In this document: piece by piece, positions 6,453-23,468 of the stretch | Layout of the letters: each line of letters opens with the position of its first letter | How positions within the stretch are numbered: the first letter of the stretch is position 1 | Assembly: GCF_900112605.1 (NCBI RefSeq) | Contig: NZ_FOMJ01000003.1 | Coordinates: forward strand, 1 to 64,000 | Source of the DNA: Thiohalospira halophila DSM 15071 | Lineage (GTDB): Bacteria; Pseudomonadota; Gammaproteobacteria; Thiohalospirales; Thiohalospiraceae | Direction: 5' to 3' | Length of the DNA: 64,000 nucleotides | Made by a program: the position numbers and the translations under genes | Notes under the pieces: generated by a model | What the model saw: only the letters and a program-made list of their open reading frames with translations | The model's database searches: none | What the model was told of the DNA's origin: nothing

Positions 6453-6650
6453 TCAGGCGGGCGTGCCGCCCTGGCCCGGCTCTTCGTCCTCGTCCTGGAT
6501 CCGGTCGTAGATCTCTTCCCGGTGGACGGTGACATCCTTGGGCGCATTGATGCCCAGGCGGACCTGGTTGCCCTTGACGCCCAGCACGGTGACCGTGATG
6601 TCGTCGCCGATGATCAGGGTCTCTCCGACCCGTCGAGTCAGAATCAGCAT
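6453..6650 (-). CDS. csrA: carbon storage regulator CsrA
   Basis: 65-aa RNA-binding regulator that dimerises and binds GGA motifs in mRNA leaders, controlling translation and stability of genes for carbon flux, motility and biofilm. The sequence starts [16 protein letters not shown] and has the conserved [21 protein letters not shown]... block with the RNA-binding Arg in [10 protein letters not shown]. The length is normal, with a short acidic tail ([10 protein letters not shown]). It lies between lysC and tRNA-Ser, as in many gammaproteobacteria. A CsrB-like antagonist RNA is encoded at 21950–22262 in this same window. Confidence 0.97.
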
Positions 6651-6746: not shown

Positions 6747-7988
6747 CTAACCGGCGGCGGTTGCCGCCTCCTCCAGATTGAAGGCCTGGTGCAGGGCGCG
6801 CACGCCGAGCTCCAGGTACTTCTCGTCGATGACCACGGAGATCTTGATCTCGGAGGTCGCGATCATCTGGATATTGATCCCCTCGTCGGCCAGGGCCCGG
6901 AACATGGTCCCGGCGATACCGGCGTGGGAGCGCATGCCGACCCCCACCAGGGAGACCTTCACGATGCGGTCGTCCCCGGCCACCTCGCGGGCGCCGAATT
7001 CCTCGGCCAGCGCCTGGAGGATCTCGACCACGCGCTGGTAGTCATTGCGGTGAACGGTGAAGGTGAAGTCCGTGGTGCCGCCGTCGGCGCCCACGTTCTG
7101 GATGATCATGTCCACCTCGATGTTGGCATCCCCGATGGGGCCGAGGATGCGCGAGGCGATGCCGGGGGTGTCCGGCACGCCGCGGATGGTCACCTTGGCC
7201 TCGTCCCGGTTGAAGGCGATGCCGGAGATCACCGGTTGTTCCATGTCGTTGTCCCCTTCGTCGACCGTGATGAGGGTACCGGGCCCCTCCTGAAAGCTGG
7301 AGAGGACGCGCAGCGGCACGCTGTACTTGCCGGCGAACTCCACGGCGCGGATCTGGAGCACCTTGGAGCCGAGGCTGGCCATCTCCAGCATCTCCTCGAA
7401 GGTGATGCGTTCCAGCCGGCGCGCCCCGGGCACCACCCGCGGATCCGTAGTGTAGACGCCATCCACGTCCGTAAAGATCTGGCACTCGTCCGCCTTCAGC
7501 GCCGCGGCCAGGGCCACCGCCGTGGTATCCGATCCGCCGCGCCCCAGGGTGGTGATGGAGCCGGCCTCGTCGATGCCCTGGAAGCCGGCCACGACCACCA
7601 CCCGGCCGTGACCGAGGTCGGACCGCACGTGCTCGCCGTCGATATCCAGGATCCGCGCCTTGTTGTAGGCGCTGTCGGTGAGGATCCGCACCTGGGAACC
7701 AGTATAGGAGCGCGCTTCGCATTCGCGCCGCTCCAGTGCCATGGCGAGCAACGCGATGGTCACCTGTTCACCAGTCGCGAGCAGGACGTCCAGCTCGCGA
7801 CCGTTGGCTTCCGGGTCGACGCGCCCGGCCAGCTCGACCAGGCGGTTGGTCTCCCCGGACATGGCCGAGACCACGACGACGACGTCGTCCCCGGCCCGCC
7901 GCCGGGCACAGACCTGGTCAGCCACCGCCTCGATGCGTTCGGGGGTACCGACGGAGGTCCCGCCATATTTCTGAACGATCAACGCCAT
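6747..7988 (-). CDS. lysC: aspartate kinase
   Basis: 413 aa. Phosphorylates L-aspartate with ATP, the first step to lysine, threonine, methionine and diaminopimelate for peptidoglycan. It starts MALIVQKYGGTSVG, with the KYGG nucleotide-binding motif. The kinase domain fills residues 1–245 (FQGID, LGRGGSDTTAVALA, DVDGVYTTDPR), and two ACT domains follow (GVPDTPGIASRILGPIG; VGVGMRSHAGIAGTMF), which sense lysine or threonine. The upstream-extended frame (to 8042) has no support; the chosen ATG begins the family's usual N-terminus. Monofunctional class, normal length. Flanked by alaS and csrA on the same strand. Confidence 0.96.
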   Translation of the reverse strand: MALIVQKYGGTSVGTPERIEAVADQVCARRRAGDDVVVVVSAMSGETNRLVELAGRVDPEANGRELDVLLATGEQVTIALLAMALERRECEARSYTGSQVRILTDSAYNKARILDIDGEHVRSDLGHGRVVVVAGFQGIDEAGSITTLGRGGSDTTAVALAAALKADECQIFTDVDGVYTTDPRVVPGARRLERITFEEMLEMASLGSKVLQIRAVEFAGKYSVPLRVLSSFQEGPGTLITVDEGDNDMEQPVISGIAFNRDEAKVTIRGVPDTPGIASRILGPIGDANIEVDMIIQNVGADGGTTDFTFTVHRNDYQRVVEILQALAEEFGAREVAGDDRIVKVSLVGVGMRSHAGIAGTMFRALADEGINIQMIATSEIKISVVIDEKYLELGVRALHQAFNLEEAATAAG

Positions 7989-8135
7989 AGGAGCGATCTC
8001 ACCGATTAGGGCGCGGCAGAGCCCCGCGCCAAAGGGGCGCAATTAAACACGAATCAAGGAGATGGTTAAAGGGGTAGGACAATCCCTACAGCCGATGACC
8101 ACCCGGGAATAGGCCCCGAGGTGGCCGTCTGCGGC

Positions 8136-10742
<2,607 letters not shown>

Positions 10743-10764
10743 GCGGTTATCCCGTACTGCGAAT

Positions 10765-11217
10765 TCAGTCGTCGTCCTCGCCCACCACCCGGCGGACCTG
10801 CTCGGCGGTAAAACCGCGCTGCTGCAGAAAGCGCATGCGCCTGGCCCGCTCGCGATAGTCGGCCGGGGGTTCGGCGTTGCCGAAGCGGTGCTGGTAGGCC
10901 GCGCGGGCCTGCTCCACCCAGTCCACCGCCTCGAGATGGGGATCGGCCAGGGCCGGTTCCACCCCGCGCTGGCGCAGCTCGGCACCGATCTTCATCGGCC
11001 CCTGGCCCCGCTCCACGCGGCTGTTCACGAAGGCCTCGGCGAAGCGCTCGTCGCTGACCAGGCGCTCCTCGGCCAGCTCGGCGACCACAGCGTCGGCGAT
11101 CGCCGGTTCGTGGTCACGCTGCTCCATTCGTGCGCGGAGTTCGGCAACGGCGTACTCACGCCGAGCGAGCAGGCGGATGGCCACCTCCCGCGCCGCGGCG
11201 TGGTCGTCGGCGCTCAC
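10765..11217 (-). CDS. recX: regulatory protein RecX
   Basis: 150 aa modulator that binds along the RecA filament groove and inhibits recombinase and coprotease activity. It has the RecX repeats: [20 protein letters not shown], then [20 protein letters not shown] and a C-terminal [19 protein letters not shown]. The start is GTG, overlapping the recA TGA (GTGA), so translation is coupled to recA, as is common for recX. Length is typical. Confidence 0.95.
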
Positions 11218-20377: not shown

Positions 20378-20701
20378 ATGACCTACGTCGTCACCGAAAA
20401 CTGCATCGCCTGCAAGTACACCGACTGCGTCGACGTCTGCCCGGTGGACTGCTTCCACGAGGGACCCAACTTCCTCGCCATCGACCCCGACGAGTGCATC
20501 GACTGCACCCTGTGCGAGCCCGAGTGCCCCGCGGAGGCCATCTTCGCCGAGGACGAGATCCCCGATGGCCAGGAGGACTTCCTGGAGCTCAACGCCGAGC
20601 TCGCGGCAAACTGGCCGGTCATCAACGAGAAGAAGGATCCCCTCCCGGAGGCGGAGGAGTACGACGGCAAGGAAGGCAAGCGCGAGCTCCTCAAGCGCTG
20701 A
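20378..20701 (+). CDS. fdxA: 7Fe ferredoxin FdxA
   Basis: 107 aa cytoplasmic electron carrier with one [3Fe-4S] and one [4Fe-4S] cluster. It starts [20 protein letters not shown], with the first cluster ligands C-x7-C-x3-CP, and has the second motif [12 protein letters not shown] (C-x2-C-x2-C-x3-CP). The C-terminal extension ([20 protein letters not shown]) is typical of the FdxA/FdI type, and the mutS–fdxA linkage is conserved in gammaproteobacteria. A strong AAGGAG site lies before the ATG. Very acidic, consistent with a halophile. Confidence 0.95.
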
Positions 20702-20808: not shown

Positions 20809-21924
20809 ATGGGTAATTTCCGGGAGACAGCCAGGCGATTTCTGCAGGAGGTCGCCTGGGACTGCCTGAGCGCCCGGCACCACAGCCGCACCTTCGACTA
20901 CTACCGGGCCGACCGGCTCATCCTCCGTTCTCGCTTCTTCGCCCTGCTCCTCGGGGTCGCCACGCCGCTGTGGCTGTTTGCCGATATCTGGCTGCTCCCC
21001 GCCGGCTATCTGGAACCCATGGTCATCCTGCGGCTGATGGCGGGTGCCCTGTTGCTGGCCCTGGTCTGGGTCGTGCCCAAGCCGAACCTGTTCGGCGCCC
21101 GTGCCCATATCCTGATGCTGGTGGGGATCCCACTGCTATTCCACGTGGCCTCCCAGGGGCTGCTCGGGCCGACCTACTCCAACCCGGCCCTCATCGGCTA
21201 CACCACCCTGCCGCTCTTCCTGGTGGTGATGCTGGCGCTCTTTCCCCTGACCCTCATGGAGGGGCTGGGGATCACGGCCCTGCTGGTGGGCGCCGTGGTC
21301 GTCCAGCACGCGGCCCAGGGCGTCATCGGCGAACTGGGGGTGCTCGGCCTCTTCTGGGACCTAGCGCTGCTCACCGGCTTCTCCCTGCTGGCCCAGGGCA
21401 TCCACCTGCACATGCTCATGCTGGTCCACCGCCAGGCCACCCACGACCCCCTCACCGGCCTGCTCAACCGTGGCGGCCTCTTCCGCCGCCTGGAGCAGGG
21501 GGTTACCCAGGAGGAGTGGCCGGATACCGCGACGGTCCTCATCATCGATCTGGACCGCTTCAAGACCATTAATGACCGCCATGGCCATCCGGTGGGAGAC
21601 GAGGTCCTGCGCCACCTCAGCACCATCCTGGAAGAACATCTGGGCCCGCAGGACCTGGCCGGACGCATCGGCGGCGAGGAGTTCGTCATCGTCGGCCATC
21701 CCGATGCAGGGGGCACTGTTCGGGAACGGGCGGATATCCTGCGCCAGGCCATCGCCGACCACCCGGCTCCTACCAGTGCCGGCCCCCTCACCATCACGGC
21801 CAGCATCGGCGTTGCCCGGTGGGAGTCCGGCCGGCGCGTCGAGGAGGTCATCGCCGAGGCCGACGAGGCGCTCTACGCCGCCAAGGAAGGTGGTCGCGAC
21901 CTGGTTGTCGAGCCTGCCTCCTGA
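20809..21924 (+). CDS. membrane diguanylate cyclase (GGDEF)
   Basis: 371 aa. N-terminal part has about six hydrophobic helices (residues 38–205), then a GGDEF domain starting DPLTGLLNRGGLF (about residue 210) with the active site RIGGEEF and the metal-binding DLDRFKTINDRHGHPVGD. It should make c-di-GMP from two GTP. The product-inhibition site (R-x-x-D five residues before GGEEF) is not present: the segment reads LGPQDLAGRIGGEEF, so feedback inhibition is probably lost. ATG chosen because GGGGGAGT precedes it and the first helix starts soon after. Faces the CsrB-like RNA gene tail to tail. Confidence 0.9.
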   Translation: MGNFRETARRFLQEVAWDCLSARHHSRTFDYYRADRLILRSRFFALLLGVATPLWLFADIWLLPAGYLEPMVILRLMAGALLLALVWVVPKPNLFGARAHILMLVGIPLLFHVASQGLLGPTYSNPALIGYTTLPLFLVVMLALFPLTLMEGLGITALLVGAVVVQHAAQGVIGELGVLGLFWDLALLTGFSLLAQGIHLHMLMLVHRQATHDPLTGLLNRGGLFRRLEQGVTQEEWPDTATVLIIDLDRFKTINDRHGHPVGDEVLRHLSTILEEHLGPQDLAGRIGGEEFVIVGHPDAGGTVRERADILRQAIADHPAPTSAGPLTITASIGVARWESGRRVEEVIAEADEALYAAKEGGRDLVVEPAS

Positions 21925-21949
21925 GCCGCTCCCGGGGTGGAGCGATCAT

Positions 21950-21974
21950 AAAAAGGCCCGCTCGAAGCGGGCCC
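21950..21974 (-). terminator. Rho-independent terminator of the CsrB-like RNA
   Basis: The minus strand reads GGCCCGCT-TCG-AGCGGGCC (21973–21955) followed by TTTTTA (21954–21949). The perfect 8-bp GC-rich stem and T run make this a textbook intrinsic terminator, pointing away from the RNA and toward the GGDEF gene's 3' end. Confidence 0.92.
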
Positions 21975-22262
21975 AAGTATTCCAAACCGGAACGAAGGGA
22001 AACGAAAGAGCGGGTTGTCGGTCGGCCTCCTGCCCACCGGGGCTTCATGCCCGAACCCGCGACTGCCTCCTGCAGACTGTTCAATCGGGCGAAGATCCCT
22101 GGCTCCCCGTACGAGCCTTCCGCCCTGCAATAACCAACCTCCCTGTTGCCTTCCCTGATTTCGGCCACTTCCTGTGGCCGCGCCTTCCTGGCGAATCGTC
22201 CCTGAGCTTGCCTTCCCTGGCGGGGCCCTTCCTGGGCCACCGCATCCTCCCTGGCGGATTTC
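21950..22262 (-). ncRNA. CsrB/RsmZ-type CsrA-sequestering small RNA
   Basis: The minus strand encodes roughly 310 nt with at least 12 GGA motifs, most in hairpin loops: GCCAGGGAGGATGCGG, GGCCCAGGAAGGGCC, GCCAGGGAAGGC, CTCAGGGACGA, GCCAGGAAGGC, GGCCACAGGAAGTGGCC, TCAGGGAAGG, AACAGGGAGGTT, GCAGGGCGGAAGG, GCCAGGGATC, GCAGGAGGC, GGGCAGGAGGCC. It ends in a Rho-independent terminator with a T run. This density of (C)AGGA/AGGGA loops is the hallmark of CsrB-family RNAs, which titrate CsrA. No protein-coding frame explains the region. The 5' end is estimated from the first GGA hairpin. csrA itself is at 6453–6650. Confidence 0.85.
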
Positions 22263-22291
22263 TTGCCGGCCCCGAGCCCGGGGCCGCGTTT

Positions 22292-22311
22292 TGTTTAGTC
22301 AGAGCCTAACA
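22292..22311 (-). promoter_or_regulatory. imperfect palindrome upstream of CsrB-like RNA (GacA/UvrY-like site)
   Basis: TGTTAG-GCTCTGA-CTAAACA on the minus strand is an imperfect palindrome some 30–50 bases before the estimated 5' end of the RNA. It recalls the TGTAAG-N6-CTTACA upstream activating sequence through which GacA/UvrY drives csrB and rsmY genes. The right half has an extra base, so the match is partial. On the opposite strand a GGCCCC/GGGGCC hairpin followed by GCGTTTTGTTT (22268–22297) could instead act as a plus-strand terminator. Confidence 0.35.
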
Positions 22312-22440
22312 AAGCGGCCGGCTGTCTCAAGGCCACCCCCTCGCCGGCCCCTGGTAGCCCCGGCATCCCCACCAGTGGTTAAACAACCTACAACTCAATG
22401 ACTTGAAGCTCATTAATCCACCGGAGAGACAGAGACTGTC

Positions 22441-22608
22441 ATGAGACCAACCAGTAGCCCTACAGTGATTTCAGTCGATCCCTACAGATGTGAACGCATT
22501 CCATTGCCGAAACGCCTTGAAGCCGGCTTCCGGGGCCCCCAATTGAGGCCTTTGATGCCCGGCCCTGGCGGGTCGGACAAGCGGCATTACCAGGAGAGGA
22601 AAAGATGA
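22441..22608 (+). CDS. possible 55-aa small ORF coupled to cnoX
   Basis: ATG-initiated frame of 55 codons, preceded by GGAGAGA about 12 bases upstream, whose TGA overlaps the cnoX ATG (ATGA). The peptide begins MRPTSSPTVISVDPYRCERI and is basic and proline-rich. No family recognised. The coupling overlap is suggestive, but the composition is ordinary and the ribosome-binding spacing is long, so it may be a chance frame in the cnoX leader. Confidence 0.25.
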   Translation: MRPTSSPTVISVDPYRCERIPLPKRLEAGFRGPQLRPLMPGPGGSDKRHYQERKR

Positions 22609-23468
22609 GCGAGACTGACAGCATCGTCGATGTCACCGCCGAGGATTTCGAACAGGAGGTTGTCGAGGCCTCCCGGCAGCGGCCCGTGCTGGTCGATTTC
22701 TGGGCCTCCTGGTGCGGCCCCTGCCAGAGCCTGATGCCGGTCCTGGAACGGCTGGCAGAGGAGTACACCGGCGCCTTCCGGCTGGCGCGGGTCAATACCG
22801 ATGAACAGCAGCAGCTCGCCGCCGACTGGGGGGTCCGCGGGCTGCCCACGGTGAAGGTCTTCCGTCACGGGGAGGTGGTGGAGGAATTCACCGGCGCCCA
22901 GCCGGAATCCGCCATCCGGCCGCTTATCGACAACCACCTGCCGCGGGAGTCGGATGCCGCGGTGGAGAAGGCGGAGGCGGAACGCGAGGCCGGCCGCCCG
23001 GAGGAGGCACTGGCCCTGCTACGGCCGGCAGCCGAGGCGGAGCCGGAGAATGCCCGGCTGCAACTGCTCCTGGCGGAGCTACTGACGGATACCGGGCACG
23101 CCGACGAGGCCGAGACGCGCCTGGACGGACTGCCGGTGAACCTCGCCTCCGATCCCCGCGTGGAGTCCCTGCGGGCCCGCGTGACCCTGGCCCGGATCGC
23201 GGCAGAGGGGCCGTCGGATGAGGAACTCGACCGCCGCCTGGAGGCCGATGGCGACGACCTGGAGGCGCGCTACCACCGGGCCGCTCGCCATGCCCTGAAG
23301 GGGGATCACGAGACGGCGCTGGCTGATTTCCTCCATATCCTGCAGCGCGACCGCGGCTTCGCCGAGGATGGCGGCCGCCGCGGTCTGCTGGCGGTCTTCG
23401 AACTACTGGGCAACTCGGGCGATCTGGTCAATCGCTACCGCGGCCGGATGTTCGCCGCCCTCCACTGA
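22605..23468 (+). CDS. cnoX: thioredoxin–TPR co-chaperone CnoX (YbbN)
   Basis: 287 aa. N-terminal thioredoxin domain with the active site WASWCGPCQSL (about residues 33–43) and the cis-proline RGLPTVKVF, then a C-terminal tetratricopeptide region (about residues 120–285) as in YbbN/CnoX. These proteins hold unfolding clients during oxidative stress and pass them to GroEL or DnaK. The CGPC motif is fully redox-competent, unlike E. coli CnoX (SxxC), so it may also act as a reductase. AGGAGAGG ribosome-binding site. Convergent with dsbC. Confidence 0.9.
   Translation: MSETDSIVDVTAEDFEQEVVEASRQRPVLVDFWASWCGPCQSLMPVLERLAEEYTGAFRLARVNTDEQQQLAADWGVRGLPTVKVFRHGEVVEEFTGAQPESAIRPLIDNHLPRESDAAVEKAEAEREAGRPEEALALLRPAAEAEPENARLQLLLAELLTDTGHADEAETRLDGLPVNLASDPRVESLRARVTLARIAAEGPSDEELDRRLEADGDDLEARYHRAARHALKGDHETALADFLHILQRDRGFAEDGGRRGLLAVFELLGNSGDLVNRYRGRMFAALH

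Follow-up and report, generated by a model that had tools for sequence, protein, structure and literature searches.

Linkage of a Csr-type RNA with fdxA is not in itself new, since it has been published for Pseudomonas, in which rsmZ is linked to fdxA (PMC3349714, PMC4353343), and for Alcanivorax, in which CsrR2 is linked to a ferredoxin gene (PMC9788540). ChIP-exo and DNase I footprinting have demonstrated that UvrY binds a palindrome of E. coli csrB (PMC4682653). In our comparison, the corresponding sequence of E. coli csrB, TGTGAGAGATCTCTTACA, starts at -191 and is followed by a second TGTAGG 23 bp further.

The stretch of DNA analysed here, referred to as the window, corresponds to positions 1-64,000 of the forward strand of contig NZ_FOMJ01000003.1 of Thiohalospira halophila DSM 15071. 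Motif statistics, the genome-wide distribution of a motif pattern and syntenic counterparts in relatives indicate that its minus strand very probably encodes, from ca. 22296 to 21950, a regulatory RNA of the CsrB/RsmZ type of ca. 345 nt that would titrate CsrA, with a 5' end placed according to the predicted promoter. Such an RNA is an ordinary representative, not modelled before, of a class that is well known, and finding one of this kind is not surprising.

Genomic context and counterparts in relatives

The gene order around the candidate RNA is mutS, fdxA, a GGDEF gene, the RNA and cnoX, all genes being located on the plus strand and the RNA on the minus strand. The conserved neighbour, fdxA (20378..20701, +), encodes a 4Fe-4S ferredoxin with a DUF3470 domain. 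Immediate flanks are the GGDEF gene (20809..21924, +), which is convergent with the RNA, and a thioredoxin-TPR gene of the cnoX type (22605..23468, +), which is divergent from it, in agreement with an earlier sequence-only reading that had placed the RNA between these two genes.

A DNA search in 37 related genomes returned the window itself as the only match, and homology was consequently sought by locus. Counterparts were found in two relatives of another genus, G001, which belongs to the same family, and G003 (loci L060 and L063, respectively). In G001 the order is mutS, fdxA, RNA and cnoX, with relative strands as in the window and no GGDEF gene, and in G003 it is mutS, fdxA and RNA. Both RNAs are ca. 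200 nt long, are rich in AGGGA/AGGA, have a GGCGGC-type terminator and lie, as does the candidate in the window, on the strand opposite to fdxA; comparison of their first hairpins by eye shows changes on both sides of the stem that preserve pairing (CCCC...GGGG vs CUCC...GGAG). The arrangement that defines RsmZ by its locus, adjacent and antisense to fdxA with mutS nearby, is thus found as mutS-fdxA-(GGDEF)-RNA in the window and as mutS-fdxA-RNA in L060 and L063. The GGDEF gene (20809-21924, +), which separates fdxA from the RNA in the window and not in G001 or G003, has probably been inserted at this locus, or else was lost elsewhere.

Motif content and folding

Between 22311 and 21950, the minus strand contains 12 CAGG[AG], 14 AGG[AG] and 15 GGA motifs, with the terminator located 3' of them. 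The run of AGGA/AGGGA that had been noticed on this strand is real: the 12 CAGG[AG] compare with 2.4 expected (sd 1.4), a count of at least 12 occurred in none of 2000 dinucleotide shuffles of the stretch, and 12 per 300 nt is the maximum of the whole window, the runner-up having 8. At the level of the genome, a looser pattern of three CAGGR gave 786 matches and was too frequent in coding sequence, so that the stricter CAGGRA form was used. Three CAGGRA separated by short gaps were found seven times, six of these matches (overlapping) being within the candidate RNA and the seventh (C2:124164) in what appears to be coding sequence, while the reversed control gave none. As expected for a non-coding RNA that antagonizes CsrA, GGA is repeated here much more often than chance would predict.

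These motifs might alternatively belong to an intergenic stretch that is rich in GGA but has no role in CsrA control, such as another sRNA or a 3' untranslated region, in which purine motifs arise from composition. The genome is indeed GC-rich with strand-biased purines, other stretches of the window reach 7-8 CAGG[AG] per 300 nt, and the candidate is without an Rfam match (see below). Against this stand the excess of 12 motifs over 2.4, the near uniqueness of the three-motif pattern in the genome, and the observation that the counterparts in relatives keep the motifs, the promoter and the upstream element while the remainder of their sequence diverges, all of which make this explanation very unlikely.

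Folding of the predicted CsrB/RsmZ-type RNA was evaluated by asking how many AGG[AG] fall in a loop of 4-7 nt. The figure of at least 12 GGA hairpins put forward by the sequence-only reading turned out to be an overcount, since 8 of the 14 motifs lie in simple hairpin loops closed by at least 3 bp (31% for the window background, P 0.039) and 5 in loops closed by at least 4 bp (13% for the background, P 0.031). When the identical rule was applied to E. coli CsrB, 11/18 and 9/18 motifs were counted, respectively. Clear loops are GGCCC-AGGAA-GGGCC, CGCC-AGGAA-GGCG, CGGCCAC-AGGAA-GUGGCCG, CAAC-AGGGAG-GUUG and CUGC-AGGAG-GCAG. Enrichment relative to the background is mild under this strict rule and was not clear under a lenient hairpin count, and the fold energy of the whole RNA is only slightly better than that of shuffles (z -1.7); both observations count against the assignment.

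Terminator and promoter

An intrinsic terminator composed of GGGCCCGCTTCGAGCGGGCCT followed by TTTT is located at 21974-21954 (minus strand) and has a 9-bp stem, a 3-nt loop and a T-run, confirming the one previously proposed; in relatives, the RNAs end at the equivalent position in a GGCGGC...GCCGCC terminator. Its position bears on two other explanations. The first is that the region is protein-coding, for instance through frames at 21848-22240 (minus, 130 aa) or 21470-22309 (plus, 279 aa). Open frames do occur on both strands, as is expected for a GC-rich genome; these have no Pfam match and the 130-aa frame crosses the terminator and extends antisense to the GGDEF gene, which renders a coding function highly improbable. 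The second is that the motifs are part of a CsrA-responsive 5' leader of a minus-strand gene and not of a free sRNA, CsrA being also known to bind leaders with several GGA sites. This is hardly conceivable and the least probable of the alternatives, since the terminator precedes any minus-strand gene and the next gene, the GGDEF gene, is on the plus strand. An RNA of the CsrB/RsmZ type is much more likely than any of the three alternatives, namely a purine-rich stretch devoid of function, a coding frame and a CsrA-responsive leader.

The first hairpin of this RNA (GGCCCCGGGCUCGGGGCC; 22267..22286, minus strand) is GC-rich and its complement reads as a terminator on the plus strand, where CGTTTTGTTT comes after the hairpin and the sequence is scored as a terminator. 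This plus-strand terminator possibly serves the convergent GGDEF gene, in which case readthrough from the latter would be antisense to the sRNA.

A promoter is predicted from a -35 element, TTGAGA (22325..22330, minus strand), located 16 bp before a -10 element, TAGGCT (22303..22308, minus strand), which is preceded by TTTGT in a manner resembling an extended -10. TAGGCT is a weak match to a -10 and this counts against the prediction; nonetheless TTGAGA-N16-TAGGCT aligns with TTGCCA-N16-TAATCT in L060 and TTGCCA-N16-TACTCT in L063, with TTTG directly before each -10, and the pattern TTGnnA-N11-TTTGnTAnnnT has a single match in the window, at this position. At the sequence level, the candidate thus has both a promoter and an intrinsic terminator of its own. 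The 5' edge first given to the RNA, 22311, falls inside this promoter; because 22308-22303 is the -10 element, transcription probably starts near 22296.

Upstream element

A GacA/UvrY-type element, CTGTAGGGATCGACTGAAATCACTGTAGGGC, is predicted at 22457..22487 on the minus strand and starts 178 bp before the -10. It reads TGTAGGGATCGACTGAAATCACTGTAGGGC with TGTAGG half-sites 22 bp apart, and an additional TGTAGG half-site occurs at 22387..22392 (minus strand). The palindrome is imperfect, with CTGAAA where CCTACA is expected, which counts against the assignment. In L060 and L063, perfect TGTAGG-N6-CCTACA palindromes start 179 bp before the -10 in both cases, and the spacing is 175 bp in L167, a locus of another family. 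Shorter spacings were found in L187 (134) and L214 (92), where the promoter calls are less certain.

Among fdxA-linked loci of other families, L167 contains TGTAGGAATTATCTGAAATATCTGTAATCC and L214 contains TGTAGGAATTTTCTGAAATTTCTGTGAGCC. With a consensus built from these two loci only, no site in the window scores higher than the one described above (22/31, the next best having 19), and a consensus that included the window sequence has one match in the genome. A search with TGTARGN6CYTACA allowing one mismatch did not find the element of the candidate sRNA, which the consensus from other families did. The window has a single pair of TGTA[AG]G with this 22-bp spacing when 0.006 would be expected on base composition, for a pattern framed after the site had been seen. 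What is predicted here is thus a half-site element with a conserved spacing and an imperfect palindrome. A similar situation exists in L255, the sole RsmZ of the class sample at gathering level, in which TGTAAGCATTTGCTTACG precedes the RNA by 178 bp and a second half-site is again present.

Elsewhere in the window, TGTAGGGATTGTCCTACC (8073-8090, minus strand) differs from the GacA/UvrY-type palindrome by one mismatch and is almost the same as the upstream element of the G001 sRNA. It lies upstream of csrA, between two minus-strand frames (8136-10985 and 6747-8042) that by their position are likely alaS and aspartokinase, and through it the Gac system possibly acts directly on the csrA operon.

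Regulatory partners and proposed mechanism

The csrA gene announced for this window was confirmed at 6453..6650 (minus strand); its 65-aa product, the presumed target of the RNA, matches PF02599 with 95.1 bits (cutoff 27). The genome encodes two CsrA proteins, the second of which is a diverged paralogue on C1 (45701-45847, L162). It also has a UvrY/GacA homologue, which is 47% identical to E. coli UvrY and adjoins uvrC as in E. coli, and a BarA/GacS-like kinase of 908 aa that is 29% identical over ca. 780 residues, so that CsrA and a GacS/GacA (BarA/UvrY) pair are both present. No CsrA match was found in G001, the best syntenic relative, which counts against the assignment, although the assembly of G001 is 91% complete.

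Under the proposed mechanism, a phosphorylated regulator of the UvrY/GacA type would bind the TGTAGG half-site element ca. 180 bp upstream and activate a sigma-70-type promoter. The resulting RNA, ending at the terminator at 21954, would present ca. 8-14 AGG[AG] sites, about half of them in short hairpin loops, and these sites would titrate CsrA dimers, which would thereby be freed from their target mRNAs. We infer that the RNA is transcribed, that the regulator and CsrA bind as described and that regulation is affected accordingly, the CsrA-binding step being proposed because of the motif class.

The CsrA-sequestering, CsrB-type identity proposed by the sequence-only reading is supported by the motif density, the terminator, the conserved locus, promoter and upstream element, and the partner genes. 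A CsrB/RsmZ-type RNA is the one explanation that fits all analyses performed, namely motifs, terminator, locus and orientation, promoter, upstream element and partners; the comparative evidence from relatives is what decides for this prediction.

Rfam searches and breadth of the fdxA linkage

Over the whole window, only tRNA (two genes) reaches an Rfam gathering score, which counts against the assignment. The csrB/rsmX covariance search that had been suggested as a check remained below gathering at a relaxed threshold, with 13.9 bits for CsrB RF00018 (gathering 71) and 20.6 bits for rsmX (cutoff 56), and PrrB_RsmZ RF00166 (gathering 44 bits) has no match in this genome; E. coli csrB, used as a positive control, scored 380 bits. 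Diverged Csr RNAs do miss Rfam scores, and standard RNA-family searches miss the candidate because its sequence has diverged. Counterpart RNAs in related genomes also fall short of the Rfam cutoffs, which designates the models, and not the candidate alone, as the limit. Matches to Trp_leader, a Betaproteobacteria toxic sRNA and RyhB, obtained at a relaxed E-value, were discarded as resting largely on the terminator.

The breadth of the linkage was addressed by automatic scan and reading of fdxA loci, 69 of which came from a sample of 140 genomes of the class, those of the family itself being added. Besides family members, GGA-rich terminated RNAs opposite to the fdxA strand were found in L187, L214, L179 and L167, which belong to other families. 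Most have TGTAGG-type upstream elements and none of the four reaches the Rfam cutoff; they are probable unannotated RsmZ-like RNAs, from four additional families within the class. In relatives of genus g3, no RNA was found beside fdxA and no UvrY match at 1e-30, with CsrA kept in nearly all, and L071 and L072, two loci from a cnoX search, have no such RNA at cnoX. Adjacency to fdxA, combined with an upstream TGTAGG element whose distance from the -10 varies little, can thus find diverged Csr RNAs where sequence models fail; this use of position plus element, which is of modest interest, is what gave candidates in four further families. For the lineage studied here, in which Rfam finds none, the candidate would add a CsrA sponge.

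Comparison with known systems

The candidate resembles E. coli CsrB (RF00018) by its length (ca. 345 nt vs 369), its many CAGGR motifs, its terminator and its UvrY-type element, which begins ca. 190 bp ahead of the start and has a further half-site at a distance of 22-23 bp. It differs from CsrB in having 14 AGG[AG] instead of 18, a less perfect upstream palindrome, only 13.9 bits to RF00018 and another locus, that of E. coli csrB being yqcC-syd. With Pseudomonas RsmZ (RF00166), it shares the location beside fdxA and mutS (PMC4353343, PMC3349714) and a GacA-type upstream element, but it is ca. 2.5 times longer, has too many sites to fit in the 133 positions of the RsmZ model, and is separated from fdxA by the GGDEF gene. 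As judged from its description, CsrR2 of Alcanivorax dieselolei is likewise a predicted CsrA-binding sRNA adjoining a ferredoxin gene (PMC9788540), with six unpaired GGA motifs when compared to the 14 AGG[AG] found here.

We tentatively raise the scenario, which we do not favour over others, that the RsmZ/CsrB RNA of Gammaproteobacteria would ancestrally have resided at the fdxA locus, that a short RsmZ-like RNA would have grown in this lineage to the size of CsrB by motif gain, and that one RNA would thereby fill the role for which Pseudomonas has multiple Rsm RNAs. The interest of the candidate is modest and lies partly in its combination of a CsrB-like size with an RsmZ-like locus.
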